From contig NC_085140.1 of the NCBI RefSeq assembly GCF_024139115.2, positions 419,876,283 through 419,940,282 of the forward strand: a stretch of DNA of 64,000 nucleotides, given 5' to 3'. Of this stretch, positions 1 to 64,000 are shown piece after piece. Numbering within the stretch: position 1 is the stretch's first letter; each line of letters starts with the position of its first letter. The position numbers and the translations under genes are program-made. The notes below the pieces were generated by a model. That model was not told the origin of the DNA, ran no database searches, and worked only from the letters and a program-made list of their open reading frames with translations. Source of the DNA: Armigeres subalbatus (Eukaryota; Arthropoda; Insecta; Diptera; Culicidae).

Positions 1-44
1 ATTCGATATGGGGAACGACAGACAAGGGGGTGGGCAGACTAAGA

Positions 45-3000
45 TCACAATCTTACATCAGCAACTTTCACAAATTGGTGGACGAGGGACATGTATTCGA
101 GATCAAGGCCCGCCAACACTTCTCTAATAGGCTTTGGTTGTTTTCCTCGGACCCGGAGATGTTCAGTTAATGCAGATCTGGGGCCGCGATTCTCCTCGCA
201 CGCCCACACGACATGATCAATGTCCTGATAATCCTCGCCGCAAACACAGAGATTGCTTTCCGAGAGCCCCACTCTGAAAAGATGTGCATTTAGAGTGTAG
301 TGATTGGACATTAGACGACACATGGTTCGAATGAAGTCTCGTCCTATATTCAATTTTTTGAACCATGGACGCTTCGACACCTGTGGGCGAATTGAATACA
401 GCCATCTACCCAGCTCCCCATTTGTCCATTTCTGCTGCCAGCTGATCAAGGTTTCCTGACGAACTAATGAGAAAAATTCATCGAAGGTGATTAGCCGATC
501 GTAAATATCACCTTCCATAGCGCCCACCTTAGCCAAAGAGTCCGCTTTCTCATTTCCCGGGATCGAGCAATGAGAAGGGACCCAAGCCATGGTGATTGTG
601 AATGACCTTTTTGATAAAGCACTCAAAGCTTTCTGTATCCCGGTTAGAAGATACGCTGAGTGCTTTACAGGTTTCATTGACCGAACAGCCTCCAAGGTAC
701 TTAGACTGTCGGTGAAGATAAAGAAGTGATCAGGAGGTAGGGATGCAATATGCTCAAGTGAATAGTGTACCGCAGCTAGCTAAGCGGTATACACGGAACA
801 AGGCTTTTTCAGCTTAAAGTAGGCGCTATGAAAAACGTTAAAACCAGTGAAGTCATCCATTTTTGACCCGTCTGTAAAAAAGCTTCTCTCGTCGCTGGCA
901 TGCCCGTATTTGCTTGCAAATAATGGAGGTATGACCTCCGCACGAAGAAAGTCTGGTATTCCATGAACCTCCTGCTTCATGGACAGATCAAAAGTAACAG
1001 AGGAACTGTAAGAGTCTAAGAAATTAGCATGATTGGTGTCAACCGAAGATGGGCTTACCTCCAGCGTCATATACCAGTGGTAAATGCTCATGAATCGAGA
1101 TTGAGGGTTTTGTTCGAGCAGCTTCTCGAAGTTGTCAATGACCAATGGATTGAGAACCTCACAGCGGATGAGGAACCGGAGCGATAATTCCGCGAAACGA
1201 TCTGTTAGAGGCAGTACTCCCGCAAGTACTTCCAGACTCATCGTATGAGTCGAATTCATACAACCCAACGCGATACGGAGACAGCGGTACTGAATCCGTT
1301 GAAGCTTCAGCATGTGTGTTTTAGCCGCGGACTGGAAGCATAAACTACCGTATTCGAGAACCGACAGAATGGTTGTTCGGTACAACGTGATAAGATCTTC
1401 GGGATGCGCTCCCCACCAAGTTCCCGTTATCGTTCGCATGAAGTTGATTCTTTTCTGGCATTTTTGTGTCAGATACACAATGTGTTTCCCGAAGGTACAT
1501 TTCGAGTCGAACCAGACCCCGAGGTATTTAGAAGACATGCTATGAGTGATTGTCTTACCCATCAGTTGGAGCGGAAACTTTGCCGGCTTATGTTTTTTTG
1601 AAAAGACAACCATCTCAGTTTTCTCCGGAGAGAATGCGATACCCAGCTTTAAAGCCCAAGTAGACAAATTGTCCAGAGTATCTTGCAATGGTCCTTGCAG
1701 ATCAACTGCGGTTGGCCCCGAAACGGATACAACACAATCATCTGCAAGCTAGCAATTTGGCATGAGACATTCATCAATGTTTCTGACGTAAAAATTGTAA
1801 AGGAAGGGGATTGAGCATGAGCCCTGGGGGGGGGGAGACCCATGTAGCATATTCGTGAAGTTGCCGAAGCACTACGAGAAAAACTCATACGCTTCTCTAG
1901 CAACAAATTATATAAATAGTTGTATAAAATTGTGAAAGTCCACACGAGTGGAGTTTGTCGGATAAGACATCAACGCAAACTGAATCAAAAGCCCCCTCAA
2001 TGTCCAAAAAAACTGAGCCCATTTGCTCTTTTTAGTGAAAGTAAGCTTAATTTCTGAAGAAAGCAACGCAAGACAATCGTTCGTTCCCTTGCCCCTGCGG
2101 AAACCAAATTGTGTATCTGACAACAAACCATTCGAATCAATCCATTCGTCTAGCCGGAAGAGAATCATCTTCTCCAACAACTTCCGAAGACAGGACAACA
2201 TCGCGATGGGGCGATACGAAATATAATCCGACGCGGGTTTTCCAGGATGGCTAACACCCTCATTTGCCTCCAATCGTCCGGAACAATGTTGCACTCCAGT
2301 AACTGGTTGAACAAGCTCAATAGGCGCCTCTTCGCGACGTCTGGGAGGTTTTTGAGCAAATTGAACCTTATTCTATCCATCCCTGGAGCAGAATTGTTAC
2401 ATGAAAGGAGAGCAAGCGAGAATTCAATCATCGAAAAGGGCCGATCCATATCATCCCTGTCAGCAAAAGCATCACGTGACACTTGCTTAACCGGCACCGA
2501 ATCCGGACAAACTTTCTTCGCAAAATCGAGTATCCACCGCGACGAGCTTTCACGATCTTCGTTAACGGACGACGCGTTGCGCATTCTTCTCCCGACGGTC
2601 CACAGAGTTTTAATTGAGGTCTCGCGCGATAAACCTTCAACAAAAGTGCGCCAATATCCACGTTTCTTCACTTTGACCAGCTTCTTGAACTGGATCTCGA
2701 GCGCGATGTACCGTTTGTGAAGAACGATCGATCCGTGTTTCCGAAATTCCTTAAACGCGTTGGATTTCTCACGATAGAGCTGTGTCACCATGGACTATGT
2801 GGTTTCCTACGAATCGAAACTCCTGGCACCGGCCGGCGTTGTGCATGGAGAGTGCTGTCAATAATTAACTGAGATAGAAACTGGTACTCTTCAAGCGGTG
2901 GAAGAGTTTCTATCGACTGTATGCCATCAGTGATGGCCTCCCCATATTTCCCCCAATCGATGTGCTTTGTGAGGTTATATGAGAGGTCGATAGAAGCGCA

Positions 3001-3081
3001 TTGATTATGTCCATTGGAAATTAAAACTTCGATCGGCAAATGATCACTACCATGGGGATCTTGGACCACCTTCCAAGTACA
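45..3081 (-). pseudogene. LINE ORF2, 3' part: end of endonuclease, reverse transcriptase, RNase H, C-terminal Cys-His (decayed)
   Basis: Second half of the polyprotein of an RNase H-bearing non-LTR retrotransposon (I/Loa-like rather than Jockey, which lacks RNase H). From right to left on the minus strand I see the end of the AP-endonuclease (GSDHLPIEV, near 3040), reverse-transcriptase blocks (SAPGMDRIRFNLL near 2380; SYRPIAMLSCLRKLLEKMI near 2190; SDTQFGFRRGKG near 2110), the catalytic box as LADD near 1740-1750, the RT thumb and connection, RNase H (FFTDGSK near 870; AWVPSHCSIPGNEKADSLAK near 560) and a terminal C-x-C-x8-H-x4-C knuckle near 230. A frameshift lies near 2250, a stop precedes LADD, and TAG replaces the expected RNase H glutamate codon at 780-782. 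The upstream endonuclease continues at 6853-7449 beyond the inserted LTR element. It cannot make an intact enzyme. Bases 1-44 would be its 3' untranslated tail. Clade is inferred from domain content only. Confidence 0.9.
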
Positions 3082-3333
3082 TGTAGTGATGTATAGATGG
3101 TTGGATAATTGGATTAAGAAATATGGCACTAATGTATATTTACAAATTGATTAAAAAATGGATTTAAAAAAAACATAGATACCTTTGGAAAAATAAATAA
3201 TAGATGAAAATGATCAATCCTTCAATCATCAGTCTTTCAACTAATTTGGATGAGTGAAGTCCTGTTTTGAAGGATGATTCATGAACCTGAAGAAAAATAT
3301 GAATGAAAGATTTGGATACCTCCGGTCACAACA
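3082..3333 (+). repeat. 5' LTR
   Basis: 252 bp, TG...CA ends, matched base for base by 6521-6772 except one position (ctttGgaaa here, ctttAgaaa there). It should carry the promoter and R region of the element; I could not fix a TATA box or polyadenylation site. Confidence 0.87.
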
Positions 3334-3334
3334 T

Positions 3335-3352
3335 TGGCGCAGTGTAGGTTAG
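3335..3352 (+). promoter_or_regulatory. Primer-binding site of the LTR element
   Basis: TGGCGCAGTGTAGGTTAG starts one base after the 5' LTR. It begins TGGCGCAGT, resembling the tRNA-Ser-type primer sites used by some insect Ty3/gypsy elements; which tRNA primes it is inference. Confidence 0.6.
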
Positions 3353-3505
3353 TATCCAAAGTATTTAACAGACTGGCAGAAAACAGTGTGAGAATAAAAA
3401 TATTTTGGGCCTAATGTTAAATGTAAAAGGAAAGACTCTGAAAATCGATGTACAACAGACAAAACTTATGATTTTGATTACGCTCTGATCGAGATCTATG
3501 TGAAT

Positions 3506-3735
3506 GGACTCCGAGAAGGAAGACGGAGATCCTGGTCAGATTTGATACAGAAAGTACAGATATAAAACACCGATTGAGAAGGCGGATGTTTTAAATTGAA
3601 ATGGATAGAAATCATGCATGTCTGCAAATGGGCTCTGATAGGGAAGGCAGAGTACCATGAGGAGAGATTCCGATAGGGAAGGCGGAAGTCTCGAATTAGT
3701 TCAAAATTGAGTTCCGATTGGGAAGGCGGAATTTC
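3506..3735 (+). promoter_or_regulatory. Array of five covarying RNA hairpins in the LTR-element leader
   Basis: Five stem-loops lie at 3506-3532, 3564-3592, 3628-3658, 3664-3692 and 3709-3735. Every loop is exactly 10 nt and purine-rich (AGAAGGAAGA, ATTGAGAAGG, ATAGGGAAGG twice, ATTGGGAAGG). Each loop is closed by a G-C pair at the top of a 3-5 bp upper stem, mostly CCG/CGG. A one-nucleotide bulge on the 3' side separates this from a lower stem of 3-6 bp. Stems change together: CTCCG/CGGAG, CTCTG/CAGAG, TTCCG/CGGAA; lower stems GGA/TCC, AAAACA/TGTTTT, ATGG/CCAT, GAGA/TCTC. The location downstream of the primer-binding site suggests a packaging, dimerisation or protein-binding signal; the function is inference. 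Confidence 0.7.
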
Positions 3736-4660
3736 TGATAAGACAAGTGAACATGATATGATAATAACAATTACCGTTTAACTTGCACAGCTTTGATCAT
3801 AAAGCAGAGTTCTGTTTTATTTAATTTCCAAATAATCAGTTCGACAACAAAAAGTTCAGAAAGATACGATCACCAAACACTAATGGCATAAATTTATTCA
3901 TTCAGCATCTTTAAAGAGTGCTTTACCTTTACTAAAAGTATCAAGAAGAGTTTTCCAGATTTTCCTGAAAAGCATGGATGAAATGGTTTGCTTAAGCATA
4001 ACGATGTACTCAACAAATATCACAAGGGTGCAAACTAGCGAAAATATTTTAGATTACGTTTCTTGTGTTTATGAGAACAGTTAAATGAAGTTTATGAACA
4101 CATTGCTTAACTGTTTTGGTAAAACACAATTTTATTTGAAATTTATATCAAATATCAAGGTTACTAGTTGGTTAGCTCGGATAGAACGAGATCGACTCTC
4201 GGTTTAAATCTTATCGAGTATTAATAATACGACTCAACAGGCTCCGCAATTTATTGTTGTGCTTGCGATACAAGATACAAAGCCGTACAAATGGTAGACT
4301 TGAAAAGTCTTGACCCAGTAATTGTGGAAATGCTAGAAATGAAAACTATTTAACATTAGATTTCGACTAACAAACTGAATCTCAATGAGCTAAAGCTGAA
4401 ATGTACTTTGAGTATATATTATTGTCTTTATTTAAGAAGTTTCAAGCGAGGTTCTTAGCCCTAGACTGGCTCACCTCTAAGATTTTGAATACCTACTGTT
4501 TCTTACCCTCAGGAATTGCCAAACACTTTTGATATATGAATATAATACTATTCGTGCTGTGCATGCTACGATGAGTTTCCCATAATATTTTCCACGATGC
4601 ATTAATACCAATAACCTTACTTTCTTTACTATTGTACTGTATCCTACAAATACATCTATA

Positions 4661-4799
4661 GTATAAAGAAATCAATAAAAGTACTTAAATAACGACCAGA
4701 TACTAGAATGTTTGGCATTGATTATTTGATTTAAGGTTAACGATCGTAATGACTTAAAGGAACATTGAGTAATTGAGTAAAATCGAAGATTCTCAACTA
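4661..4799 (+). repeat. Internal direct repeat of the LTR element, copy 1
   Basis: 139 bp repeated at 6085-6223 with two visible mismatches. Neither copy is at an element end, so this is an internal duplication rather than an LTR. Confidence 0.85.
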
Positions 4800-6084
4800 G
4801 GGTAAATCACTACTTGGGCCTATGGACCCGGTTCCCGGCTCACTGAACAGAAAACTAATGATTTATACTGTTTGAAAGCCGTAGGTTCATGATTGATAGT
4901 TTTTAAAAAGTCTCCCATTTATTTTTCACAATACTCAATATTTTTCAACCACTTGTTTCACTCCTAATTGATCCAATTGTAGAAAACAAAAATGTATATT
5001 TCAAAATTTCGCTCTCCGATGCCACGCCACTGAGCCGGAGTGATTCTTTCCACTTTTACAAAACGGTATCATCAAATAAACACCTACCTGAAAATCGTCA
5101 CAGTGCTCGATACAACCATTGCTTGAAGCTGTCAATCACCACACCATAATTCTAAACACACGCGCTTCAATTCTTCCTAATTTTTCGTTTCACTAGAACT
5201 TATTTAAACACATTAGAATACATTTTAAAATGTATCCTCAAACCGAACAAAAAATCACCTCGGCCCAAGAACTTCTTGCCGCACCGTGCTGCCAAAACGC
5301 CAGGAGTATGAAAATGATCCTTCATTGTTAATAGGAAAACTGTCTAATACGTTGACGCTATCATGTTATTTATAATTCTTTCGATTTCAAAAGGTGAAAA
5401 AAATATTGTTTTTAAGTATTTGGAAGAAATTTGGATGAGTAAATATATCTTCTCAACCAAATAAAAATTATTATGAATAATACCATCTGGCATCTTGTTG
5501 TCGTGGAACGTGCATATTTTTGTTTACGTCGCATTTTCTACCGTCCCGAGAGAGAAAGAGAGTAATAAGTTGAGAGATTGAGCAAAATTTTGCTTAGGCC
5601 GGGAATTGGTTTGGAAGTGGGCCGGAAATTAAATCGCTATGACTGAAATGAGTGCTGCACCTCGTTAATTAAAATCAAATAAAAGCTTTTTTGAACGATA
5701 TTTAGCACTGATACCTTTTTTTTTTTAATCAGAAGTGAACCTCAATGCAGTATTACACAGCCCACAAGATTCAGGAAAAGTTGCTTCCTGTCATAATAAC
5801 AATTAAATAATTCAGTCGTATGCAAGTTAGGCCGGGAATGGGGTAAGAAACCCTATGCGAACAGAGCTCGGTAGAAAATATCTCCAGCAAAGCAAACTGA
5901 GCATTAACTTAATTAGCTTGATTCATGCACAGTACACTTAGTGTTTTAACAATAATTGGGAGATAGATAATCAAACAAATCATAATGTAACAATATACTG
6001 GAAGATAGTATGTATGATAAAAAAAAAACGGCAAAATATAAATGTCCTGAAAAATAATAATAAATTGTATGTCAAATACAATAT

Positions 6085-6223
6085 GTATAAAGAAATCAAT
6101 AAAAGTACTTAAATAACGACCAGATACTAGAATGTATGGCATTGATTATTTGATTTAAGGTTAACGATCGTGATGACTTAAAGGAACATTGAGTAATTGA
6201 GTAAAATCGAAGATTCTCAACTA
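6085..6223 (+). repeat. Internal direct repeat of the LTR element, copy 2
   Basis: Second copy of 4661-4799. Short neighbours are duplicated as well: TATGCGAACAG near 5854 and 6222, and TGTATGTCAAATACAATATG near 6065 and 6257. The 3' part of the interior was therefore built by local duplications. Confidence 0.85.
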
Positions 6224-6507
6224 TGCGAACAGATCTCGATAGAAAATAATAAAAATAAATTGTATGTCAAATACAATATGTTTGATAACTAAAGATTTGT
6301 AAGAACATGGACCTCGAATGAATTAGATTTTCTTGTTGGCAAATTATTCAATGTAAGAGATACTGTTTGTGGAGATGTGCTAGATACTTAAACAAATACA
6401 GGAATACGTGATAAAAAAACACAAGAGAAGTACAAAACGAATCAAAGAGTATTTTATAGTATGTAGTTTGGTCAAAGATATTGAAACAAAAAAAAACAAA
6501 AGAGTAT

Positions 6508-6520
6508 AGATGGGGGGTAA
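6508..6520 (+). promoter_or_regulatory. Polypurine tract of the LTR element
   Basis: agatggggggtaa directly precedes the 3' LTR, the expected position for the plus-strand primer of reverse transcription. Confidence 0.6.
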
Positions 6521-6772
6521 TGTAGTGATGTATAGATGGTTGGATAATTGGATTAAGAAATATGGCACTAATGTATATTTACAAATTGATTAAAAAATGG
6601 ATTTAAAAAAAACATAGATACCTTTAGAAAAATAAATAATAGATGAAAATGATCAATCCTTCAATCATCAGTCTTTCAACTAATTTGGATGAGTGAAGTC
6701 CTGTTTTGAAGGATGATTCATGAACCTGAAGAAAAATATGAATGAAAGATTTGGATACCTCCGGTCACAACA
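6521..6772 (+). repeat. 3' LTR
   Basis: 252 bp, the same length and ends as 3082-3333. It is followed by TTGG, the first bases found after the 5' LTR, and then by a partial LTR copy. Confidence 0.87.
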
Positions 6773-6780
6773 TTGGATGA

Positions 6781-6852
6781 CCTGTTTTGAAGGATGATTC
6801 ATGAACCTGAAGAAAAATATGAATGAAAGATTTGGATACCTCCGGTCACAAC
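6781..6852 (+). repeat. Partial third LTR copy at the right end of the LTR element
   Basis: Repeats the last 72 bp of the LTR with an offset of 81 bp (cctgttttgaagg at 6700 and 6781). Upstream, TTGGATGA joins directly to CCTG, skipping GTGAAGT relative to the full LTR. It ends CACAAC against LINE sequence. Confidence 0.85.
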
Positions 6853-7449
6853 GATAATGAGCTCGAACAAATGGAAAGATCTAGACGACTATCTCTTGCT
6901 GGAGGAGCCACTCGTGTAACTTCTCCTGTATTCAAAATTGTCATATTAAAGTCGTCGCAGAGGTCGTATATCATTGATGAACGGTTGTCGTCGTACAGTT
7001 CCCCAGCCTGTTCCGTGGGGAGTAAAAATCTCCCAAGAGCAACCGTGGCTCGGGCATAACCGAGCAGATGTGCGAGAGATCCCTACGAGATATCGCGGTG
7101 TTTGGAGGAAGATATATCGAGGCGATACTGAGGTCTTTTCCTCGAATAGTCACCTGACATGCGACAGCTTCGGTGCATGACATCGAAGCAAAATCGACCC
7201 TATCGAAGGAGTGCTGTTTTTTGATCCCTAAAAGCACCCCTCCATATCGATCTGCCCGATCGCAGCGGTTATGTTGAAATCAGGAAAATGAAGGTTCACA
7301 TATGGTGTTAGCCAAGCTTCACATATAGCAAAAGCATCGTATTGTAATTTGTTAACTAAAAATTTGAATATATCTTATTTTTGAAGAATACTTCGACAGT
7401 TCCACTGTAGAATCGAAATCATGTTACCCTTACTGACTAAGTTAGCCAT
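6853..7449 (-). pseudogene. LINE ORF2, 5' part: AP endonuclease (decayed)
   Basis: N-terminal half of the LINE polyprotein. A start is plausible at 7449 (MANLVSKGNM), leading into ISILQWNCRSILQ, the first endonuclease motif. A TAA follows at once, so the copy is dead. Further left are FAICEAWLTP near 7320, SIASIYLPPN near 7110, a GDF-type motif near 7050 and SRLDLSICSSSLS near 6870, the typical segment before the GSDHLP box. That box is at about 3040, on the far side of the inserted LTR element, showing that 6853-7449 and 45-3081 are one interrupted gene. Several frameshifts separate the motifs. Confidence 0.82.
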
Positions 7450-7654
7450 TGAAGGATACAAATGACTCCAGGAGGGGCATTTTTGAAGCCAGTTGCTTTA
7501 GGAGAGGAGTCAGAATAGGAAGAACAGTTTTGACCATGTTCTTTACGGGGTCGGAAGCATCAAAGAAGTTGAGGATGAGCTCCACGATGCCAGAAAGTGT
7601 GAACATTGGAGCGCTCGGGAGTTCTTCTGCTCGCTCTGTATGCTCTCTTTCTGG

Positions 7655-8806
7655 CTAAGAAATCGCAAAAAATGGGGCATCTGGGATTTTAGATGTTCCC
7701 GGAAGCGGTGGAAACTCTCGATCATCCCGATGTGAAACCACAAAAGTTGAACGTTTTTGAGTATTTCCACCCGCTTTGAATTTGACCATGTTGGATTGGG
7801 GCTCACTTTGCGGTTGTTTTCTAGGCTTTTTCGAGGGTCGCTGGCTCTGTTTTATTCTCTTCCTCGTTGAGCCATTGAAAACAAAGGGAACGCCATTCCC
7901 AACTTCGGAGTCAGAGCTACCTTGATCGTTCAAAGGAAGAGACGAGTAGATGGTGTCAGAAACGAGTGGAGAAGCGGCCTTCCTTAACATTTCGGCGTAA
8001 CTTCGCCGAGAACGCTGCTGAAGAGACCGCTTCTGGTGGATTCGGAGCTGTATGTTCGTTGGGCAAGCTTCAAGAGCATGTGGAGGGCTTTCGTTACAAT
8101 AGACACATTTCGGTGCTGCCTTGCACGTGCCATCCACATGCTTCTCTCCGCACGATGCACAGCGAGGTTTAGTACTAAGCGGTGTGGCCCAGTTGCTTGC
8201 AATTAATACAATCCATCACCTTCGGTACATACAGCCGCACAGGTGGACGAAGTTTGCCAATCACTACGTAGTCAGGCAGTACGGACCCGGAAAAGGTAAC
8301 GCAGAAAGAGTCAGATGGGGAATAAATCCGCTTCTCTTCCTCCTGAGACACCGAATTCATTTGTTTACAATCCAGTATCGCAACAGGAGGCAAAGAAACG
8401 TTCTTGAAACGATCGAACCTTGTTTCAAATCGTCGCATGTCATACTTCCCTCCGTCACCACCCCCGCGATCTCACACACTGCTGACGGTAAATACACTTT
8501 GTATTCGAGAGTGAAAAGCTCACAGGTGGCAATCTCGTTGGTCTGTTTGCGATCACTGACCGTGACACGGAGTTTACTGGACCCAACCATGTCAATGGTC
8601 GTGACAGACGAAAATCGCTTTTCCAGATCTTTGCTAATCTGGCTGATATTCAAACGTTTGCCTTTGGGTCGAAAGAAAACAACATACGGCCCACTAGAGT
8701 CGTGAGGGTAGACCTTGGGACGGGGGCTCGTAGAGGAAATTTTAGCGTTGCTGGTGTCCATTTCGTTTTGGTTTGGAACACCTGAATGCAACGAAACATC
8801 TGACAT
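7655..8806 (-). pseudogene. LINE ORF1, Gag-like nucleic-acid-binding protein (frameshifted)
   Basis: ORF1 lies just upstream of ORF2 on the same strand. I place the start at 8806 (MSDVSLHSG), though the frame is open to 8881. It runs through GPYVVFFRPKGKRLN and a Gag-like domain, shifts frame near 8430, continues with PVRLYVPKVMDCINCKQLGH (first CCHC knuckle, near 8190), shifts again near 8150, and goes on to CVYCNESPPHALEACP (second knuckle, near 8080), a Ser/Lys-rich tail and a PPLPGTS motif near the stop. This is the usual Gag layout of RNase H-bearing LINEs. It binds its own RNA in the retrotransposition particle. Two frameshifts make the copy non-functional. Confidence 0.82.
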
Positions 8807-9330
8807 GGAATACGAAGTACCCCGCCAACTTCGCCTTCGCGCATTGCAGGACACGAAATGCGCCGCTGCAGCGAGGCACAATCTATTTTAAAACTAAACA
8901 ATTATCACAAGGGCAGAAAAACACACACACAAACAAAAATGATTTGGGACAGAGGGAAGACGAGTAAAAAGAGAGAAAAACTATTCCGATAAGATGGAGA
9001 AGGGAGGGGAACAATAAGAGGGAGCTCAATTAAATACTTGCGTTCACACTGCTGTGTTGCCGGCTAACAGTTCTGGCAGCACACACTAGCTCGATGGACA
9101 CTCGCCGGTGGTGCGGTCGAAGCGAACCACGCTATTGTTGGTGTTCTCGCCGCACCCAACACTGCAACTGGGTGGATGGATGGTGGCAGGACGGCAGCGT
9201 CTGTGTTGGTGGAGACGCACGATGGATGATGACTGTCGGCGTGGGACGATGATGCCTGCGCCTGCGATGGACGCCGAATAAACTGCAAAGTTTTGCGTAG
9301 TTGCAAAACCAACGAAATGGCTACTTAACT
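8807..9330 (-). mobile_element. Probable 5' untranslated region of the LINE
   Basis: GC-rich non-coding sequence directly upstream of ORF1. Full-length LINEs carry an internal promoter here. The 5' boundary is uncertain; it must lie before the foldback element at 9362. Confidence 0.45.
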
Positions 9331-21324: not shown

Positions 21325-24300
21325 CCGAAAGATCCTCCCAGAAAGTTCTTCCAGAATTTCTTTCGATAGTTTCTCCAGAAATTCCTCCGGAAGTTCGTAC
21401 AGAAATTCCTCAGGAAGCTATCCATTATGATGCACATCATTCCGATAAAAATACAAATAAGAGTCCTCCGGAAATTTTAGATCTAAGGTAGCAGAGCATG
21501 TGTATAAGGAAAATCACCCAATTACGGCATCCTTAAGAAATGTCTCTTCCCCATGGAAACTCGGTGTAGCTGAGAGTTTGGAAATCTACCGACAGGTACA
21601 AACAGCGCTGTTGAATAAGGATCAGGGAAATGGCAGCTCTTGGTTTCTCTAGGAAATTCTCCAGAATTTCCTCCTGGAAGCTCCGGAATTTTCTCCAGGA
21701 ATTCTTGCACAAGTTCCTCCAGTATTCCTCCAGTAGGAGTTCTTTCAGATGTTCTTTCGTAAATTCCTCCAAGATTTTTTTCCAATACTCCTCCAGAATT
21801 TCCTTCGAAAGTTCCTGGAAGGAAATCATTGAGGAACTCCCGGAATTTTTCCTGGGGGAACTTCCGGAGGAATTCCTGGAGGAATTTCTGGAGGAACTTC
21901 CGGAGGAATTCCTGGAGGAACTTCCGGAGGAATTCCTGAAGGAATTTCTGGAGGAACTTCCGGAGAAATTTCTGGAGGAACTTCCGGAGGAATTTCTGGA
22001 GGAACTTCTGGAGGAATTCCTGGAGGAACTTCCGGAGGAATTTCTGGAGGAACTTCCAGAGGATTTTCTGGAGGAACTTCCGGAGGAATTCCTGGAGGAA
22101 CTTCTGGAGGAATTCCTGGAGGAACTTCCGGAGGAATTCCTGGAGGAACTTCCGGAGGAATTCCTGGAGGAACTTCCGGAGGAATTCCTGAAGAACTTCC
22201 GGAGGAATTCCTGGAAGAACTTCCGGAGGAATTCCTGGAGGAACTTCCGGAGAAATTCCTGGAGGAACTTCCGGAGGAATTCCTGGAGGAACTTCCGGAG
22301 GAATTCCTGGAGGAACTTCCGGAGGAATTCCTGGAGGAACTTCCGGAGGAATTCCTGGAGGAACTTCCGGAGGAATTCCTGGAGGAACTTCCGGAGGAAT
22401 TCCTGGAGGAACTTCCAGAGGAATTCCTGGAGGAACTTCCGGAGGAATTCCTGGAGGAACTTCTGGAGGAATTCCTGGAGGAACTTGCGGAAGAATTCCC
22501 TGAGGAACTTCCGGAGGAATTCCTGGAGGAACTTCCGGAGGAATTCTTGGAGGAACTTGCGGAGGAATTCCTGGAGGAACTTCCGGAGGAATTCCTGAAG
22601 GAACTTCTGGAGGAATTCCTGGAGGAACTTCTGGAGGAACTTCCAGAGGAATTCCTGAAGGAGCTTCCAGAGGAATTCCTGGAAAAACTTCCGGAGGAGT
22701 TCCTGGAGGAACTTCCGGAGGAACTCCTGGAGGAATTCCTGGAAGAACTTCCAGAGGAACTCCTGGAGGAACTTCCGGAGGAACTACCGGAGGAATTCCT
22801 GGAGGAACTTTCGGAGGAATTCCTGGAGGAACTTCCGGAGGAATTCCTGGAAGAACTTCCAGAGGAATTCCTGGAGGAACTTCAGGAGGAATTCCTGGAG
22901 GAACTACCGGAGGAATTCCTGGAGGAACTTCGGAGGAATTCCTGGAGGAACTTCCGAGGAATTCCTGGAGGAACTTCCGGAGGAATTCCTGGAGGAACTT
23001 CCGGAGGAATTCCTAGAGGAACTTCGGAGGAATTCCTGGAGGAACTTCCGGAGGAATTCCTGGAGGAACTTCCGGAGGAATTCCTGGAGGAACTTCCGGA
23101 GGAATTCCTGGAGGAACTTCCGGAGGAATTCCTGGAGGAACTTCGGAGGAATTCCTGGAGGAACTTCCGAGGAATTCCTGGAGGAACTTCGGAGGAATTC
23201 CTGGAGGAACTTCCGGAGGAATTCCTGGAGGAACTTCCGGAGGAATTCCTGGAGGAACTTCCGAGGAATTCCTGGAGGAACTTCGGAGGAATTCCTGGAG
23301 GAACTTCCGGAGGAATTCCTGGAGGAACTTCCGGAGGAATTCCTGGAGGAACTTCTGGAGGAATTCCTGGAGGAACTTCCGGAGGAATTCCTGGAGGAAC
23401 TTCCGGAGGAATTCCTGGAGGAACTTCCGGAGGAATTCCTGGAGGAACTTCCGGAGGAATTCCTGGAGGAACTCTCGGAGGAATTCCTAGAGGAACTTCC
23501 GGAGGAATTCCTGGAGGAACTTCCGGAGGAATTCCTGGAGGAACTTCGGGAGGAATTCCTGGAGGAACTTCCGGAGGAATTCCTGGAGGAACTTCCGGAG
23601 GAATTCCTGGAGGAACTTCCGGAGGAATTCCTGGAGGAACTTCCGGAGGAATTCCTGAGGAACTTCCGGAGGAATTCCTGGAGGAACTTCCGGAGGAATT
23701 CCTGGAGGAACTTCCGAGGAATTCCTGGAGGAACTTCCGGAGGAATTCCTGGAGGAACTTCCGGAGGAATTCCTGGAGGAACTTCCGGAGGAATTCCTGG
23801 AGGAACTTCGGAGGAATTCCTGGAGGAACTTCGGAGGAATTCCTGGAGGAACTTCCGGAGGAATTCCTGGAGGAACTTCCGGAGGAATTCCTGGAGGAAC
23901 TTCCGGAGGAATTCCTGGAGGAACTTCCGGAGGAATTCCTGGAGGAACTTCCGAGGAATTCCTGGAGGAACTTCCGGAGGAATTCCTGGAGGAACTTCGG
24001 AGGAATTCCTGAGGAACTTCCGGAGGAATTCCTGGAGGAAATTCCGGAGGAATTCCTGGAGGAACTTCCGGAGGAATTCCTGGAGGAACTTCCGAAGGAA
24101 TTCCTGGAGGAACTTCCGGAGGAATTCCTGGAGGAACTTCCGGAGGAATTCCTGGAGGAACTTCCGGAGGAATTCCTGGAGGAACTTCCGGAGGAATTCC
24201 TGGAGGAACTTCCGGAGGAATTCCTGGAGGAACTTCGGGAGGAATTCCTGGAGGAACTTCCGGAGGAACTTCCGGAGGAAGTTCTGGAGGAACTTCCGGG

Positions 24301-24965
24301 GGAATTCCTGGAGGAACTTCCTGAGGAATTCCTGGAGGAACTTCCGGAGGAATTCCTGGAGGAACTTCCAGAGGAATTCCTGGAGGAACTTCCAGAGGAA
24401 TTCCTGGAGGAACTTCCAGAGGAATTCCTGGAGGAACTTCCAGAGGAATTCCTGGAGGAACTTCCGGAGGAATTCCTAGAGGAACTTCCGGAGGAATTCC
24501 TAGAGGAACTTCCGGAGGAATTCCTGGAGGAACTTCCGGAGGAATTCCCGTAGGAACTTTAGAAGGAAATCATTGAGGAACTCTCGGAATTATTCCTGGA
24601 GGAACTTTCGGAAGAATTCCTGGAGGAATTTCTGAAGGAACTTCCGGAGGAATTTCTGTAGGAACTTCCGGATAAATTCCTGGAGGAACTTCCGGAGGAA
24701 TTCCCGTACGGAAATCATGGAGGAACTCTCGGAATTATTCCTGGAGGTAATTTCGGAGGAATTCCTGGAGGAGCTTCCGGAATTATTTCTGGAGGAACTT
24801 TTGGAGGAATTCCTGGAGGAACTTTCGGAGGAATTCTTGGATGAACTTCCGAAGGAATTCCTGGAGGAACTTGCGAAGGAATTCCGGAGGAACTTTCGAA
24901 GGAATTCTTGGAGGAATATCCGATGAAATAACTGGAGGAACTTCCGAAGGAATTCCTGGAGGACA
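21325..24965 (+). repeat. 24-bp minisatellite with palindromic half-units
   Basis: Built from GGAATTCCTGGA and GGAACTTCCGGA 12-mers in alternation. From 21325 to about 21820 the array is on the opposite strand and more diverged; from 21821 it is regular, with scattered one-base deletions. GGAATTCC is a perfect palindrome and TTCCGGA nearly so. The motif GGAAATCATTGAGGAACTC marks block starts at 21821 and 24565, with a variant at 24710. All frames stay open because stop triplets are absent from the unit; the 322- and 668-codon frames are not genes. Confidence 0.93.
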
Positions 24966-24999
24966 ATGAATGATTAAAAAAAAAGCCGTCGCTCTACGA

Positions 25000-25215
25000 T
25001 GAAATTTTCAAATTGACTATTTTTGCCGAAGCTCCGGATATTTCAGGGGACACCACGGTAACACAAAGGTTCTTGTGTAGTCAAAACATCAATTTTATAC
25101 TCAGGGTTCGATAACAATAAGTTTTAAAAAAATCCCGCCGCTCTACGATGAAATTTACGAATTGACCATGTTTACAGATGTTCCGTATCTTTCAGGGGAC
25201 CACAATGGTCCATGG
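25000..25215 (-). repeat. Right outer arm of A
   Basis: About 1.4 units, in reverse complement, of the 150-bp sequence of 19765-20210. CGCTCTACGATGAAATTT occurs twice, near 25003 and 25140, with TCAATTTTATACTCAGGGTT between. Confidence 0.78.
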
Positions 25216-25480
25216 TCCATTCGTTCATGTCGTCGATGGTCGATGGGTCCGGGTGTAAATGGGTCAGCGCCCTATCCGACAGTTTGGAGATCGAATAACA
25301 AAAACGTTCGTTGCAACAGTGACTCATTGTCACCCCCAACGACGGTAACTCCAGAACCAATCATGGAAATGGAACCAAATATGGCATGTAGAGGTTTATA
25401 AAGTCAAAAATTGCCAATCAAGCGGTATGTTTAAATTCGACCAAATTTCTCTTACGTTAGCAAATAAACCATTCAGAGTA

Positions 25481-25752
25481 GTGGGGAAGCACAGTAGACG
25501 CTGTAAGACGCACGGCTGCAAAGCAAGACCAAGCTGAGGGTGGCTGGGTTCGATTCCCGGTGCTGGTCTATACAATTTTCGGATTGGAAATTGTCTCGAC
25601 TTCACTGGGCATAAAACTATCATCGTGTTAGCCTGGTAACCTGGCTTAGAAACCTCGCAGTTAATAACTGTGGAAGTGCTTAATGAACACTAAGCTGCGA
25701 GGCGGCTGTAATGCGAATAAGAAGAAGAAGAAGAAGAAGGAGAAGAAGAAGA
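25481..25752 (+). mobile_element. tRNA-derived SINE, copy 3
   Basis: Head diverged (GTAAGACGCACGGCTGCAAA), B box GGTTCGATTCCCGGTGCTGG, body ATTGGAAATTGTCTCGACTT and AACACTAAGCTGCGAGGCGG, then a (GAA)n tail. Same family as copies 1 and 2. Confidence 0.88.
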
Positions 25753-50924: not shown

Positions 50925-51640
50925 ACTGGATTGGGTCTCGATTAAATTTGGTTTGGATTTGGATTGAATTTGGATTGGATTTCAATTGGATTTGGATTAG
51001 ATAGGATGTAGATTGGATTGGAATTGGATATAGATTGCATATGGATTGTATTAAATTTGGATTTGTATTGAATTTGGAGTTGAATTCAGATTGGATTCGG
51101 ACTGGATTGGGTTTCGATTAAACTTGGATGGGAGTTGGATTGTGATTGAATTTGAATTTGATTGAAAGTAAATTGGATTTGGATTTGAATTCGGATTTGG
51201 ATTGGATTTGAATTTAATTTAGAATGGATTGCAATTGGATTTGGATCGACTTTGAATTGGATGTAGATTGTATATAAATTGTATTGATATTGGATTGGAT
51301 TTGAATTGGATTCCGGTTGAATTTGGATTGGTTTTGGATTGAATTTGTATTGGTTTTGGATTGGATTTGGATTGGTTTTGGATTCAATTTGGATTGGTTT
51401 TGGATTGAATTTGGATTGGTTTTGGATTGGTTTTTATTGGATTTTGGATTAGATTTGGACTGCATTTGGATTGGATTTGGATTGGATTTGGATTGGATTT
51501 GGATTGGATTTGGATTAGATTTGGACTGCATTTGGACTGCATTTGGATTGGATTTGAATTGGATTTGGATTGGATTTGGATTGGATTTGGATTATATTTG
51601 GACTGCATATGGACTGCATTTGGATTGGATTTGAACTGAC
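50925..51640 (+). repeat. Short-period satellite, TTTGGATTGGA words
   Basis: Tandem TTGGATTTGGA/TTGGATTGGAT words of 5-6 bp in 11-12 bp units, degenerate at the left and regular from 51340 to 51600. Open frames on both strands (e.g. SNPNPIQIQ repeats) are artefacts. Confidence 0.93.
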
Positions 51641-54600
51641 CTGGATTGACCGACTGGATCTGACTGGACTGGATTTGGACTGATCTTGACTGACCTGATC
51701 TGACTGGACTGGATCTGGATTGACCTGGACTGACCTGGACTGACTGGATCTGGACTGATTTGACTGACTTGGACTGATCTGGATCGACCTGACTGGATTG
51801 GACCAGACCTGACTGGATCTTGACTGACCTGGACTGGATCTGGACTGATCTGACTGATCTGACTGACCTGGACTGGATCTGGACTGACTGACCGACTTGG
51901 ACTGACTGACCTGACTGACTGACTGATCCCGCCGAACCTGAACTGGTTTGGATCGAACCTGGTACTGGCTCTGGACTGATCTGGACTGGCCTTTAGATCC
52001 AACCTGGACTGGTTTTGGACTGAACCTGACTGGCCTGACTGGCTCTCATTGATCTTTGGATCAGATCTGGACCGCACTCTGGACTGGATCTGGACTGGAC
52101 CTGGACTGGATCTGGACTGAAACTGGGACTGACTGACCTGACTGACTGGACCGACCTGACTAGATCTGGACCGCACTTGACTGGATCTGAACCGACCTGG
52201 ACTGACCTGACCGACTGGACTGACCTTGGACCTGGATCTTGACCGATCTGGACTGATCTGGACTGACCTGGACTGACCTGGACTGGATCTGGACTGGATC
52301 TGGACTGACCTGACCGATCTGGACTGGACCTGGACTGATCTTGGACTGGATCTGGACTGGATCTGGACTGATCTTGACTGGATCGACTGGATCTGACTGA
52401 CTGGACCTGGACTGGATCTGGACTGACCTGGACTGACCAACTGGATCTGACTGACCGACTGGACTGGACTGGACTTGACCGACCTGACCGACCTGACTGG
52501 ACTGGACCTGGACTGACCTTGGACCGACCTGACTGGATCTGGACTGGACTCTGACTGGATCTGACTGATCTGGACTGACCTGACCGGATCTGGACTGACT
52601 GGACTGGACCTGGATCTGGACACCTGGACCGACCTTGGACTGGATCTGACTGATCTGACTGACCGACTGATCTGACTGACTCTGGACTGACCTGACCGAT
52701 CTGGACTGGATCTGGACTGGATCTGGACTGACTGGACTGATCTGGACTGATCTGGACTGACCTGGACTGACTGATCTGGACTGGATCGGACTGGACCTGA
52801 CTGACTCTTGGACTGGATCTGACTGATCTGGACTGGATCTGACTGGATCTGGACTGACCTGACTGGACTGGATCGACTGGACTGGATTGACTGGACTGGA
52901 CTGGACCTTGGACTGGACCTGGACTGGATCTGGACTGGATCTGGACTGGATCTGACTGGACCTGGACTGACCTGGACTGACTTGACCTGACTTGACTGGA
53001 TTTGGACCGACCTGGACTGGATCTGACCAATTTTGACTGGATTTGACTGATCTGACTGGATCCTGGACTGGACTGACTGGATCTGGACTGGATCGGACTG
53101 ACCTGACTGGATCTGGACTGACCTGGACTGGATCTGACCGACCTTGACTGGATCTGGACTGGATCTGACTGAACTGACTGGATCTGGACTGACCTGGACT
53201 GACTGACTGGATCTGGACTGACTGGACTGACCGACCTTGGACTTGACTGGATCTGACCTGATCGGATCTGGACTGACTTGACTGGACCTTGGACTGACCT
53301 GGACTGACCTGGACTGATCTGGACTGGATCTGGACTGGACCTGGACTGATCTTGACCGATCTGGACTGACCTGGACTGACTGGACTGGATCTGGACTGAC
53401 CTGGACTGACCTGACCGACCTGGACTGGACCTGGACTGGACCTGGACTGGATCTGGACTGACCTGACTGGATCTGGACCGATCTGGACTGATCTGACTGG
53501 ATCTTGGACCGACCTGGACTGACCTGACTGGATCTGGACTGGATCTGACCGACCTGACTGACTGGATCTTGGACTGGATCTGGACTGGATCTGGACTGGA
53601 TCTGGACTGATCTGGACTGATCGGACTGACCTGACTGGATCTGACTGGACTGACTGATCTGGACTGGATCTGGACTGACCTGGACTGACCTGGACTGGAT
53701 CTGACTGATCTGACTGGATCTGGACTGATCTGGACTGGATCTGACTGACTTGACTGGATCTGACTGGACCTGGACTGGATCTGACCGACTTGACTGATCT
53801 GGACTGGATCTGACTGACCTGACCGACCTGGACTGGATCTGGACTGATCTGGACTGACCTGGACTGGATCTGACCGATTGACTGACTCGACTGGATCTGG
53901 ACTGACCGGACTTGGATCTGGACTGGATCTGACTGGATCTGACTGACTGGACTGGATCTGGACTGGATCTGGACTGACCTGACTGACTGGACTGACCTGA
54001 CCGACCTGGACTGATCTGGACTGGATCTGGACTGACCTGGACTGACTTGGACTGGACCTGACTGACCTGGACTGACCTGGACTGGACCTGACTGACCTGA
54101 CTGATCTGACTGACTGGATCTGACTGACCTGGACTGGATCTGGACTGATCTGGACTCGATCTGGACTGATCTGGACTGACCTGGACTGGATCGACTGATC
54201 TGGACTGGATCTGGACTGGATCTGACTGGATCTGACTGACCGATCTGGACTGGATTCCCGACCTTGGACTGGATCTGGACCTGACTGATCTGGACTGACC
54301 TGGACTGACTCTGACTGACCTGACTGACCTGACTGGACCTGGACTGGACTGACCTGACTGGACCTGGACTGGACCTGGACTGGATCTGGACTGACTGGAC
54401 TGATCTGGACTGACCTGACTGACCTGGACTGGATCTGGACTGACCTGGACTGGATCTGGACTGGACCTGGACTGACCTGGACTGGACTCGACTGACCTGG
54501 ACTGGATCTGGACTGACTGGACTGACCTTGACTGACTGGACCGATCTGGACTGACTTGACCTGACTGATCTGGACCGACTGACCGACCTGGACTGATCTG

Positions 54601-57600
54601 GACCGACTCTGACTGATCTGGACTGATCTGGACTGGATCCTTGACCGGACTGACCTGGATCTGACTGGATCTGGACTGACCTGACTGGATCTGGACTGGA
54701 TCTGACTGGATCTGACTGGACTGATCTGACTGACCTGGACTGGACCTGACTTGACTCAATTGACTGACTGACTGACCTGACTGGACTGACCGACTGACCT
54801 GACTGGACTTGGACTGAACTGGACCGACCTGGACTGGATCTGGACTGGATCTGGACTGGACCTGACTGGATCTGGACTGACCGATCTGGACTGACCTGAC
54901 TGACCTGATCTGGACCGACCTGGACTGATCTGGACTGGACTGACTGGATCTGGACTGGATCTGACTGGATCTGGACTGGATCTGGACTGACCTGGACTGG
55001 ACTGGACCGACCTGGACTCGGATCTTGACTGGACTGACCTCGACCTGATCTGACCTGACTGGACCGATCGACTGACCTGACTGGATCTGGACTGGATCTG
55101 GACTGACCTGACTGACCTGGACTGATCTGGACTGACCTGGACTGACCTGACTGATCTGGACTGACCTGGACTGACCTGGACTGACTTGACTGACCTGACT
55201 GACTGGATCTGACTGACCTGGACTGGATTCGACTGGACTGGATCTGGACTGACCTGGACTTGACTGACCTGACTGACTGACCTGACTGACTGATCGACCT
55301 GGACTGGATCTGGACTGACCTGGACTGGATCTGGACTGATCTGGACTGATCTGGACTGACCTGACTGGACTGACCTTGGGATCGACCTGGACTGATCGAT
55401 CTGGACTGGATCTGGACCGATCTGACCGATCTGGACTGACCTGGACTGACCTGGACTGGACCTGGACTGGATCTGGACCGGACTTGACCGATCTGACTGA
55501 CTGGACTGACCTGGATCGACTGACCTGGACTGACCTGACCGATCCTGGACTGGACCTGACTGATCTGAATTCTGACTGACCTGGATCTGGACCGACCTGG
55601 ACTGACCTGGATCTGGACCGATTTGGACTGACCTGACTGGACCTGGACCGATCTGGACCGGATCTGGACTGACCTGACTGACCTGGACTGAACCTGGACT
55701 GACCTGACTGACCTGGACTGGACCTGACCGATCTGGACCGACCTGGACTGATCTGACTCGATCTGGACTGACCTGACCGACCTGGACTGACCTTGACTGG
55801 ACCTGACTGGATCTGGACTGACCTGGACTGACCTGGACTGGATCTGGACTGACCTTGGACTGACCTGACTGGATCTGCTCGTGATCTGAATCTTGACTGG
55901 ATCTTGATCTGACCGATCTGGACTGGACTCTGACTGGATCTGACTGACCTGACTGGATCTGGACTGGATCTGGACTGACCTGACTGGATCTGGACTGATC
56001 TGGACTGGATCTTGACTGGATCTGGACTGACCTGACCGACTGGACTGGATCTGGACTGATCTGGACTGGATCTGGACTGACCTGGACTGACTTGGACTGA
56101 CCTGGACTGATCTGGACTGACTCTGGACTGACCTGACTGGATCTGGACTGGATCTGGACTGACCTGACTGACCTGACTGGATCTGGACTGGATCTGACTG
56201 GACCTGACTGACCTGACTGGATCTGGACTGACCTGGACTGACCTGGACCTGGACTCTGGACTGACTGGACCGACTGGACCGACTGGACTGGATCGGACTG
56301 GACTTGACCTGACTGGATCTGGACTGGACCGACCGACTGACCTGGACCGATCCTGGACCGACCTGACTGGATCTTGGACTGATCTGGACTGGATCTGACC
56401 TGACTGACTTGACTGACCTGGACTGACCTGGACTGACCTGGACTGACCTGACTGACTGGACTGGACTGGATCTGGACTGATCGGACTGACCTGGACTGGA
56501 TCTGGACTGACCGACCTTGACTGGACTGGACTGACTGGACTGATCTGACTGGATCTGGACTGGATCTGGACTGACTGACCGACCTGGACTGACCTGACTG
56601 GATCTGGACTGACCTGGACTGACCTGACCGATCTGGACTGACCTGACCGACCTGACTGGACTGGACTGACTCGACTGACCGACTGACTGACCGACTGACT
56701 GGACTGATCTGACCGACCTGGACCGACTGACCGACCTGGATCGATCTGGACTGACTGGACTGACCTGACCGACCTGGACTGACCTGACTGACTGACCGGA
56801 CTGACCTGGACTGGATCTGGACTGGACCTGGACCGACTCTGGACTGGATCTTGACTGGATCTGGACTGACCTGGACTGATCTGGACTGGATCTGGACTGG
56901 ATCTGGATCTGGACTGACTGACCTGGACTGGACTGAACCTGGACTGGATCTGGACCGATCTGGACTGATCTGACCTGGATCTGACTGACCTGGACTGACC
57001 TGGACTGGATCTGGACTGATCCTGGACCGACCTGGACTGACCTTTGGACTGACTTGACCGATCGACCTGGACCGACTTGGACTGACCGACTGACCTGGGA
57101 CTGACCTGGACTGGACTTGACCGGATCTGACTGGACTTGATCGACTTGACCTGGACTGGACTGGATCTGACTGATCTGACTGGACCTGACTGGATCTGGA
57201 CTGATCTGACTGACCTGGACTGGATCTTGACTGGATCTGGACTGGATCTGACTGGATCTGGACTGACCTGACTGGACTGGACTGATCTGGACTGACCTGA
57301 CTGATCTGGACTGACCGATCTGACTGGATCTGGACTGGATCTGGACTGACCTGACCTGACCGACTTGACTGATCTGGACTGGATCTGACTGGATCTGGAC
57401 TGGATCTGGACTGACCGACTGGATCTGACTGGACCTGGACTGGATCTGGACTGACCTGGACTGACCTGGACTGGATCTGACTCGACCTGGACCGATCTGG
57501 ACTGGACCTGGACTGGATCGGACTGACCTGACTGGATCTGACTGACTTGGACTGGATCTGGACTGACTGGACTGACTTGACTGACTTGACCGATCTGGAC

Positions 57601-63600: not shown

Positions 63601-64000
63601 GACTGACTGGACCTTGGAAACGGATCTGGACTGACTTGGACTGGACTGGACTGGACTGGACTGACTTGGACTGACCTGGACTGGATCTGGACTGACTTGG
63701 ACTCGATCTGGACCTTGGATCTGACTGGATCTTGGACTGACCTGACCGATCTGACTGACCTGACCGATCTTGACTGACCTGGACTGGATCTGGACTGGAT
63801 CTGACTGATCTGACTGACCTGACTGGATCGACTGACCTGGATTGATGACCTGGATCTGGATTGACCTGACTCCTGACTGGATCTGGACTGATATAGACTG
63901 GATCTTGGCCTGAACTGATCTGGCCCTGACTGGATCTGGACTGGATCTGGAACGGATCTGGACTGATCTGGACTGACCTGGACTGGATCTGGTACCTGAT
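51641..64000 (+). repeat. Satellite of CTGGACTGGAT/CTGGACTGACC words, at least 12.3 kb
   Basis: Made almost only of CTGGA, CTGGAT, CTGACC, CTGATC and CTGA words, mostly in 10-11 bp pairs; irregular order with no obvious higher-order unit by eye. The right 560 bp (from about 63440) is more degenerate, suggesting an edge near the window end. The minus strand has almost no stop triplets in any frame, which yields frames of up to 2893 codons; none begins or ends like a gene and all are Ser/Gln/Val/Pro repeats. Confidence 0.96.

Follow-up and report, generated by a model that had tools for sequence, protein, structure and literature searches.

A constant-loop hairpin array, probably a packaging signal, in the leaders of coding and non-coding LTR retrotransposons of Armigeres subalbatus

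In the window, the 64,000-nucleotide stretch of DNA from the Aedini mosquito Armigeres subalbatus that was analysed, positions 3082–6772 were occupied by an LTR element (Table 1), assigned to family A. Its interior was without coding capacity, the longest stop-free stretch being 93 codons. An earlier annotation made from the sequence alone (the first-pass annotation) had described a hairpin array in the leader of a non-coding LTR element, and the LTRs, the primer-binding site (PBS) and the short open frames bore out this context. The PBS, beginning TGGCGCAGT, is presumably of the tRNA-Ser type. Based on the two LTRs, the PBS, the absence of coding capacity and the target duplication of two further copies (L130 and L131), family A was classified as a non-autonomous LTR retrotransposon. 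The window copy contained an extra stretch of about 1.05 kb, which we read as a later insertion or duplication. Approximately 150 bases at 4647–4799, repeated at 6073–6223 with 97% identity, flanked this stretch. On the minus strand, open reading frames at 1–3081 and 6853–8900 resembled those of a non-LTR retrotransposon that the LTR element interrupts. Large tandem arrays, for which part of the copies were listed, were observed at 21700–25500 and 51600–64000, with a 12-base unit and, toward the end of the window, a degenerate GACTGGATCTG-like satellite.

Table 1. Features of the LTR element in the window and loci of the families discussed. Free energies are those of single hairpins folded with short flanks.
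Feature	Positions	Strand	Description
5′ LTR	3082–3333	+	starts TGTAGTGA / TGTAGTGATG, ends GGTCACAACA; one mismatch in 255 aligned sites against the 3′ LTR
Primer-binding site	3335–3352	+	begins TGGCGCAGT; length assumed; LTR end and PBS start common to other families
Hairpin H1	3506–3532	+	GGA-CTCCG / CGGAG-A-TCC, loop AGAAGGAAGA; −10.1 kcal/mol
Hairpin H2	3564–3592	+	AAAACA-CCG / CGG-A-TGTTTT, loop ATTGAGAAGG; −8.0 kcal/mol
Hairpin H3	3628–3658	+	ATGGG-CTCTG / CAGAG-T-A-CCAT, loop ATAGGGAAGG; −10.8 kcal/mol
Hairpin H4	3664–3692	+	GAGA-TTCCG / CGGAA-G-TCTC, loop ATAGGGAAGG; −9.7 kcal/mol
Hairpin H5	3709–3734	+	GAG-TTCCG / CGGAA-TTT, loop ATTGGGAAGG; −7.6 kcal/mol
Extra stretch of about 1.05 kb	4800–5853	+	no counterpart in copies L130, L131 and L132
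3′ LTR	6521–6772	+	matches the 5′ LTR, one mismatch in 255 sites
TTGGATGA and a second, partial copy of the 3′ part of the LTR	6773–6852	+	72/72 identical
Family A			window
Family A2			L137
Family B			L184, L186, L192, L199
Family C			L183, L201–L205
Family D			L172, L179, L187
Family E			L181, L206–L209
Family F			L197
Ungrouped, beside families A–F			L200

The hairpin array began about 170 nt and ended about 400 nt past the PBS. Each loop was 10 nt long and closed by a G-C pair, with the sequence AGAAGGAAGA in H1 and a sequence of the AUNGRGAAGG type in the other four. Under a rule demanding G-C closure, a 10-nt loop, at least three inner pairs and −7 kcal/mol or lower, the array gave five matches; 3000 dinucleotide shuffles averaged 0.055 matches, with three at most. 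None of the shuffles reached four, confirming the five sense-strand stem-loops at 3506–3734. Elsewhere in the window (50.7 kb, satellite end excluded), the rule gave 28 matches on the plus and 20 on the minus strand. The more detailed description in the first-pass annotation held in part. The G-C closing pair and the fixed loop length were present throughout, but the loops were purine-rich rather than pure purine (AUAGGGAAGG, AUUGGGAAGG), and the one-base 3′ bulge was clear in H1–H4 while H5 folded without one. H2 had just three inner pairs. In the thermodynamic folding that had been proposed, the hairpins folded singly, whereas the fold of the whole 281-nt region was unremarkable and mildly stable (z −1.63; 13 of 200 shuffles equally good). 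A search of window positions 1–9000 against Rfam (E ≤ 10) yielded four matches, all far under the gathering scores and none within the array.

In the ensemble of the full leader, H1–H3 folded locally with a probability of 0.91–1.0, and H4 and H5 with 0.07 and 0.08, because their near-identical arms can swap. The 5′ arm of H4 paired with the 3′ arm of H5 at −12.0, compared with −9.7 and −7.1 for their own pairs. Such swaps, favoured by folding of the whole leader, would suit a dimerisation or structural-switch element in which the arms pair with those of an adjacent hairpin or another RNA molecule. In another family A copy (L132, reverse strand, around 2300–2339), a deletion had fused the 5′ half of H4 with the 3′ half of H5 into one perfect and stabler hairpin (−12.0). 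We nevertheless consider this role quite unlikely, as H1–H3 were local and most arm swaps among the five were weaker than the true pairs. The loops were not self-complementary by eye, and kissing-loop dimers are therefore not expected.

A genome search for copies returned 10 matches at nine places, the window included. Copies L130–L132 had LTRs on both sides, and L133 had two LTRs in tandem at its 5′ side. Target duplications of 5 bp flanked L130 (GCTTG) and L131 (GTACT); L132 had none, nor had the window copy, which is rearranged at its 3′ end. An old copy (L137; 78% over 125 nt) with its own LTR end and PBS still had five hairpins, two of them poorly paired. Compared with L137, 29/138 sites had changed in the hairpins and 42/107 in the spacers; compared with L131, the values were 11/138 and 16/108, a difference that was not significant. 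The first-pass annotation had proposed a covariation test on element copies, and the alignment of eight family A copies gave no covariation above shuffles. It had also named stems broken without compensation in other insertions as evidence against its reading. Broken pairs did occur in H4 of L135 and H5 of L137, yet the stems covaried between hairpins and between families (see below).

The pattern formed by the LTR end and the PBS (ACAACATTGGCGCAGT, one mismatch allowed) was found at 52 places in the genome, versus nine for the reversed pattern. We examined 42 of them: 30 cut out with a tool, one inside L172 and 11 picked by hand because their PBS variant resembled families already known to have hairpins. 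Several groups with different LTRs carried the same hairpins, and families were delimited by hand from the bases following the PBS (Table 1). Families C, D, E and F were related; over the longest pieces, C shared 77% with F, 72% with D and 74% with E. In one hairpin of C–F, the closing pair was A-U (CCA/TGG) instead of G-C.

A single-hairpin model (R2) built from 25 instances was run on 36 sources, namely 33 PBS-type and control loci plus the window, L131 and L137; the other family A copies, L168, L170, L171, L173–L176 and L185 were omitted, being copies or duplicates. At E ≤ 0.5, R2 matched 17 of the 21 loci with the LTR end and PBS of the group and none of 12 others (six elements with a similar PBS but a different LTR end, and six presumed chance matches). 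The array was thus enriched in related leaders, including that of the gag-pol family B, in line with the first-pass annotation, for which a lack of enrichment would have counted against the idea. By selection, matches were obtained in 8/10 tool-cut and 9/11 hand-picked loci, and in 13/17 loci outside the training set. All 62 R2 matches were in the sense orientation relative to the PBS, and 42 of them fell in 14 untrained matching sources, many of which were near-copies of trained ones. No hairpin was detected by R2 in four of the 21 PBS-type loci (L169, L179, L200 and L209), and L204 had one weak match. With a looser motif based on the loop alone, single matches also appeared in three of the 12 others, and five matches on the antisense strand. 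Among the 44 unique cores of this motif, one (at three loci) is H1 read in a shifted register, and several are due to chance.

Genome-wide, the core pattern TCYGATNGRGAAGGCRGA had 78 exact matches, compared with one for the reversed control. The PBS pattern (one mismatch allowed) was present within 2 kb upstream of 22 of 44 core clusters and absent there from the other 22. At C1:114769198, C1:234463726 and C1:291270799, a further family (G) was observed whose four exact cores span about 200 bases and include three of the CTG/CAG type. Cores of several hairpin-bearing families cluster within 27 kb at C1:234463726–234490098, where G, C, a lone core and three arrays of B occur, with both orientations represented.

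Stem covariation was assessed with 24 hairpins from five families (A 5, A2 5, B 6, C 5 and F 3), with one representative per hairpin; L192, L199, D, E and some decayed hairpins were dropped. With one common loop, the true pairing amounted to −169.1 kcal/mol, against a mean of −106.5 kcal/mol when the 3′ arms were re-dealt, and this stability was reached in 0 of 200,000 re-deals. The number of inner pairs was 104 (mean 96.0; 132 of 200,000 re-deals equally good). When A2, A, B or C together with F were left out, 0, 0, 0 and 5 per 50,000 re-deals were as good in energy, and 23, 245, 231 and 57 in inner pairs, respectively. For the window hairpins alone, the true pairing ranked second among the 120 exchanges of 3′ arms (−45.4 versus a mean of −26.4 kcal/mol), and for the L137 hairpins it ranked 12th of 120; with both sets together, 142 of 100,000 re-deals were as good. 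A permutation of only the outer helices with free bulges was not significant (0.17 for the window, 0.46 for L137 and 0.15 for all), so that covariation is not claimed for the outer stems by themselves and the claim rests on the full-energy test.

In an ungapped alignment of 25 hairpins, both-side changes (25 versus 12.5 expected) and the covariation score (0.291 versus 0.201) were each reached by 0 of 500 shuffles, although related sequences may surpass shuffles of this kind; pairs changed on both sides (83/500) and further pair types (300/500) were not unusual. The 78 exact cores comprised 56 CCG/CGG, 18 CTG/CAG, four CCG/CAG and no CTG/CGG. Fisher's test gave 3e-14 for this pairing if the cores are independent, which copies are not. 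The four CCG/CAG cores are broken pairs, and CTG/CGG, with a tolerable U-G pair, was absent; both were counted against the reading of the array as a packaging tag. Cells with G-U versus A-C mismatches numbered 29 and 10 in A2, 11 and 9 in A3, and 4 and 4 in the inner stem of A3, a weak signal. Based on the re-deal test, the proposal of the first-pass annotation that compensated stems reflect selection on RNA structure was well supported between hairpins and families.

These data bear on two other explanations. The five units repeat one another, and the family A copies did not covary above shuffles, as neutral tandem duplication of a functionless palindromic unit would predict. This explanation appears extremely improbable, since the loops remained constant while the stems diverged in step, the hairpins were more conserved than the spacers relative to L137 (not significantly relative to L131), and the hairpins were the only internal similarity found between A and B–F. 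The gypsy insulator consists of DNA sites bound by su(Hw) and is not known to have compensated RNA stems. A comparable role of the array at the DNA level, as an insulator or enhancer, is improbable, as a DNA site needs neither compensated stem changes around a constant loop nor a fixed orientation to the transcript. A gypsy-type insulator should be independent of orientation and stem pairing, and it was rejected as a candidate with all 62 matches in sense and the stems compensated. The likeness is one of position: the gypsy repeats likewise lie in the 5′ untranslated region of an insect LTR element, and according to PMC3286476, repeats in the 5′ leaders of fly elements can be insulators or enhancers.

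When the 3.18-kb interior of A was compared with the first 1.5 kb inside B–F (plus strand), all 16 matches with E ≤ 0.01 were located within 3504–3739. This comparison yielded no array match to F and no other internal similarity between A and B–F outside the array. The interiors of B and C–F had one 18-base core in common, in C. LTR tips and the PBS are signals needed by the integrase and the primer tRNA, respectively. The LTR end GGTCACAACA with the PBS start was found in A–F; L137 had ATTACAACA instead. An LTR start within two mismatches of TGTAGTGATRTATAGA was present in A, B, D, E, F, L200 and one of two C loci, being 539 bases off in E, and absent from L183, L137 and all five unrelated elements with a similar PBS. 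Sites complementary to the loops formed no pattern, with one CCTTC in the LTR of A, one CCTTCCC upstream of the LTR of B and none in C.

Family B was the member with gag and pol. In L184, the PBS was located at approximately 1508, six hairpins at 1607–1916 and the gag ATG at 2032, placing the array between the PBS and gag. The six hairpins lay at +119 to +389 from the start of the pattern, with neighbours 35 nt apart three times; the spacing of H3 and H4 in A and A2 was also 35 nt. In the full-leader ensemble of B, the six hairpins formed locally with a probability of 0.01–0.52. The Gag frame was open for 304 codons from stop to stop in L192. In L184, gag was in two overlapping frames and pol in several, and no intact B element was found among the copies read. 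Two CCHC knuckles (one detected with Pfam, both by pattern), reverse transcriptase, RNase H and integrase were encoded downstream in L198. Judged by the order reverse transcriptase–RNase H–integrase after a CCHC-bearing Gag, family B is a Ty3/gypsy element. The N-terminal stretch had no Pfam or NCBIfam match and was termed Gag because of its place and the knuckles that follow. The 3′ LTR of B was found in L185, and the LTRs were 99.6% identical over 270 aligned bases. At L184 2909–2975, the Gag was interrupted upstream of the zinc knuckles by an intron-like stretch beginning GTATGT and ending TTATTAG.

Relatives of the B Gag were found in Aedes albopictus (65%), Topomyia, Toxorhynchites, Uranotaenia and Wyeomyia. 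The best named relative of its reverse transcriptase was a K02A2.6-like protein of Sabethes (65%), a name that we take to be linked with the Mag lineage and that was the only hint of B being Mag-like. Among 130 scored matches to the B Gag (of 1132 candidates), four at three places, all of them B, had an exact core within 3 kb upstream, and the exact tag is therefore not a general feature of the Gag clade. In a B-like fragment of 95% identity (C2:105288495), no exact core was present within 3 kb upstream. In the stretches of C, D, E and F examined (downstream ends excluded), no similarity to the Gag or Pol of B was found.

Since the array of this protein-coding relative lies between the PBS and gag, packaging is the most economical reading. 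We hypothesize that the array is an RNA recognition tag of the non-autonomous LTR element, probably a packaging signal that is recognised by Gag and common to B and the non-coding families. As expected of a psi element, the array occupied the leader of a gag-pol element (L184, with its gag and pol in pieces), and its RNA secondary structure was conserved across families, although not visibly so among the eight A copies. Transcripts would start in the 5′ LTR, and their hairpins would expose purine loops to be bound by the two CCHC zinc knuckles of the B Gag. Consecutive hairpins would give avidity and mark the RNA for loading into particles. Non-coding elements with the same tag, which presumably depend on a helper, would be loaded, reverse transcribed and integrated in trans, with reverse transcriptase priming at the common PBS and integrase acting on the common LTR tips. 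Family B may in this way mobilise A and the other non-coding families. More broadly, there is an even chance that the array is a packaging code for several families in one genome, by which a gag-pol element selects its own RNA through a row of constant-loop hairpins that A, C–F and probably G have kept or independently assembled.

The array could also serve post-transcriptional control other than packaging, with a host protein binding it to govern RNA export, stability or translation. Selection on RNA structure and the position in the 5′ untranslated leader of B, upstream of gag, would both fit, and host RNA-binding proteins are compatible with all results. Such control is still unlikely to be its role, as the array persisted in elements without detected coding capacity, for which loading and reverse transcription are required but translation is not, and as it accompanied other cis signals used in trans (LTR tips and PBS). 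A precedent for loops as Gag targets comes from mouse mammary tumour virus (MMTV), for which PMC8096270 describes a nine-purine apical loop as a high-affinity Gag site needed for packaging; by analogy, the array loops may act likewise. The MMTV element (SL4 ssPurines) resembles the array in that a stem in the 5′ leader, upstream of gag, presents a purine-rich apical loop as a proposed Gag target. It has one loop of nine purines, whereas here five or six hairpins repeat a 10-nt loop across unrelated-looking families and the role as a Gag target is predicted. Single-core matches in a viral collection (at least 120 stretches) were taken as chance matches of a short pattern and not used.

Hairpins that serve packaging are known, as are LTR elements that depend on a helper. 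In plants, RIRE2/Dasheng and BARE1/BARE2 are pairs in which a non-autonomous element uses the Gag/Pol of a helper; to our knowledge, they share long leader or LTR similarity and not hairpins alone, as here. Perhaps the nearest relatives in print are Culex quinquefasciatus elements, set beside A by description alone. According to PMC3286476, these include 38 non-coding, repeat-bearing LTR families without a master copy, and the cqUNK group resembles A in being mosquito LTR elements with a PBS, a non-coding interior and internal repeats. The cqUNK repeats are described there as tandem DNA repeats without a master copy, whereas the part shared by A is an RNA hairpin with B as a candidate partner. 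The same source reports Culex Mag-like elements with a tRNA-Leu or tRNA-Ser PBS, three of them with repeats in the 5′ untranslated region. TRIMs and the TRIM-like Helenus and Ajax are likewise non-coding, thought to be mobilised in trans and equipped with Gypsy-like PBS regions (PMC10886601, main text). Their link to a helper is PBS or internal similarity, and the word hairpin does not occur in that main text. In the open-licence literature, we found no paper that assigns a packaging role in insect LTR retrotransposons to such an array, and no constant-loop multi-hairpin array common to a gag-pol family and non-coding families. If correct, the hairpin reading would link "orphan" LTR elements to their helpers by computation, and with so short a covarying tag, packaging could be tested using a single purified Gag domain and RNAs of 30 nt.

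At several loci, TTGG or a longer stretch resembling TTGGCGCAGNCGGT separated the LTR end from a further piece of LTR or from other DNA (window 6773–6852; L133, reverse strand, 1468; L185, 1507–1527; L172, approximately 1507). These stretches appeared as if part of the copied tRNA primer had been retained at the 3′ end.
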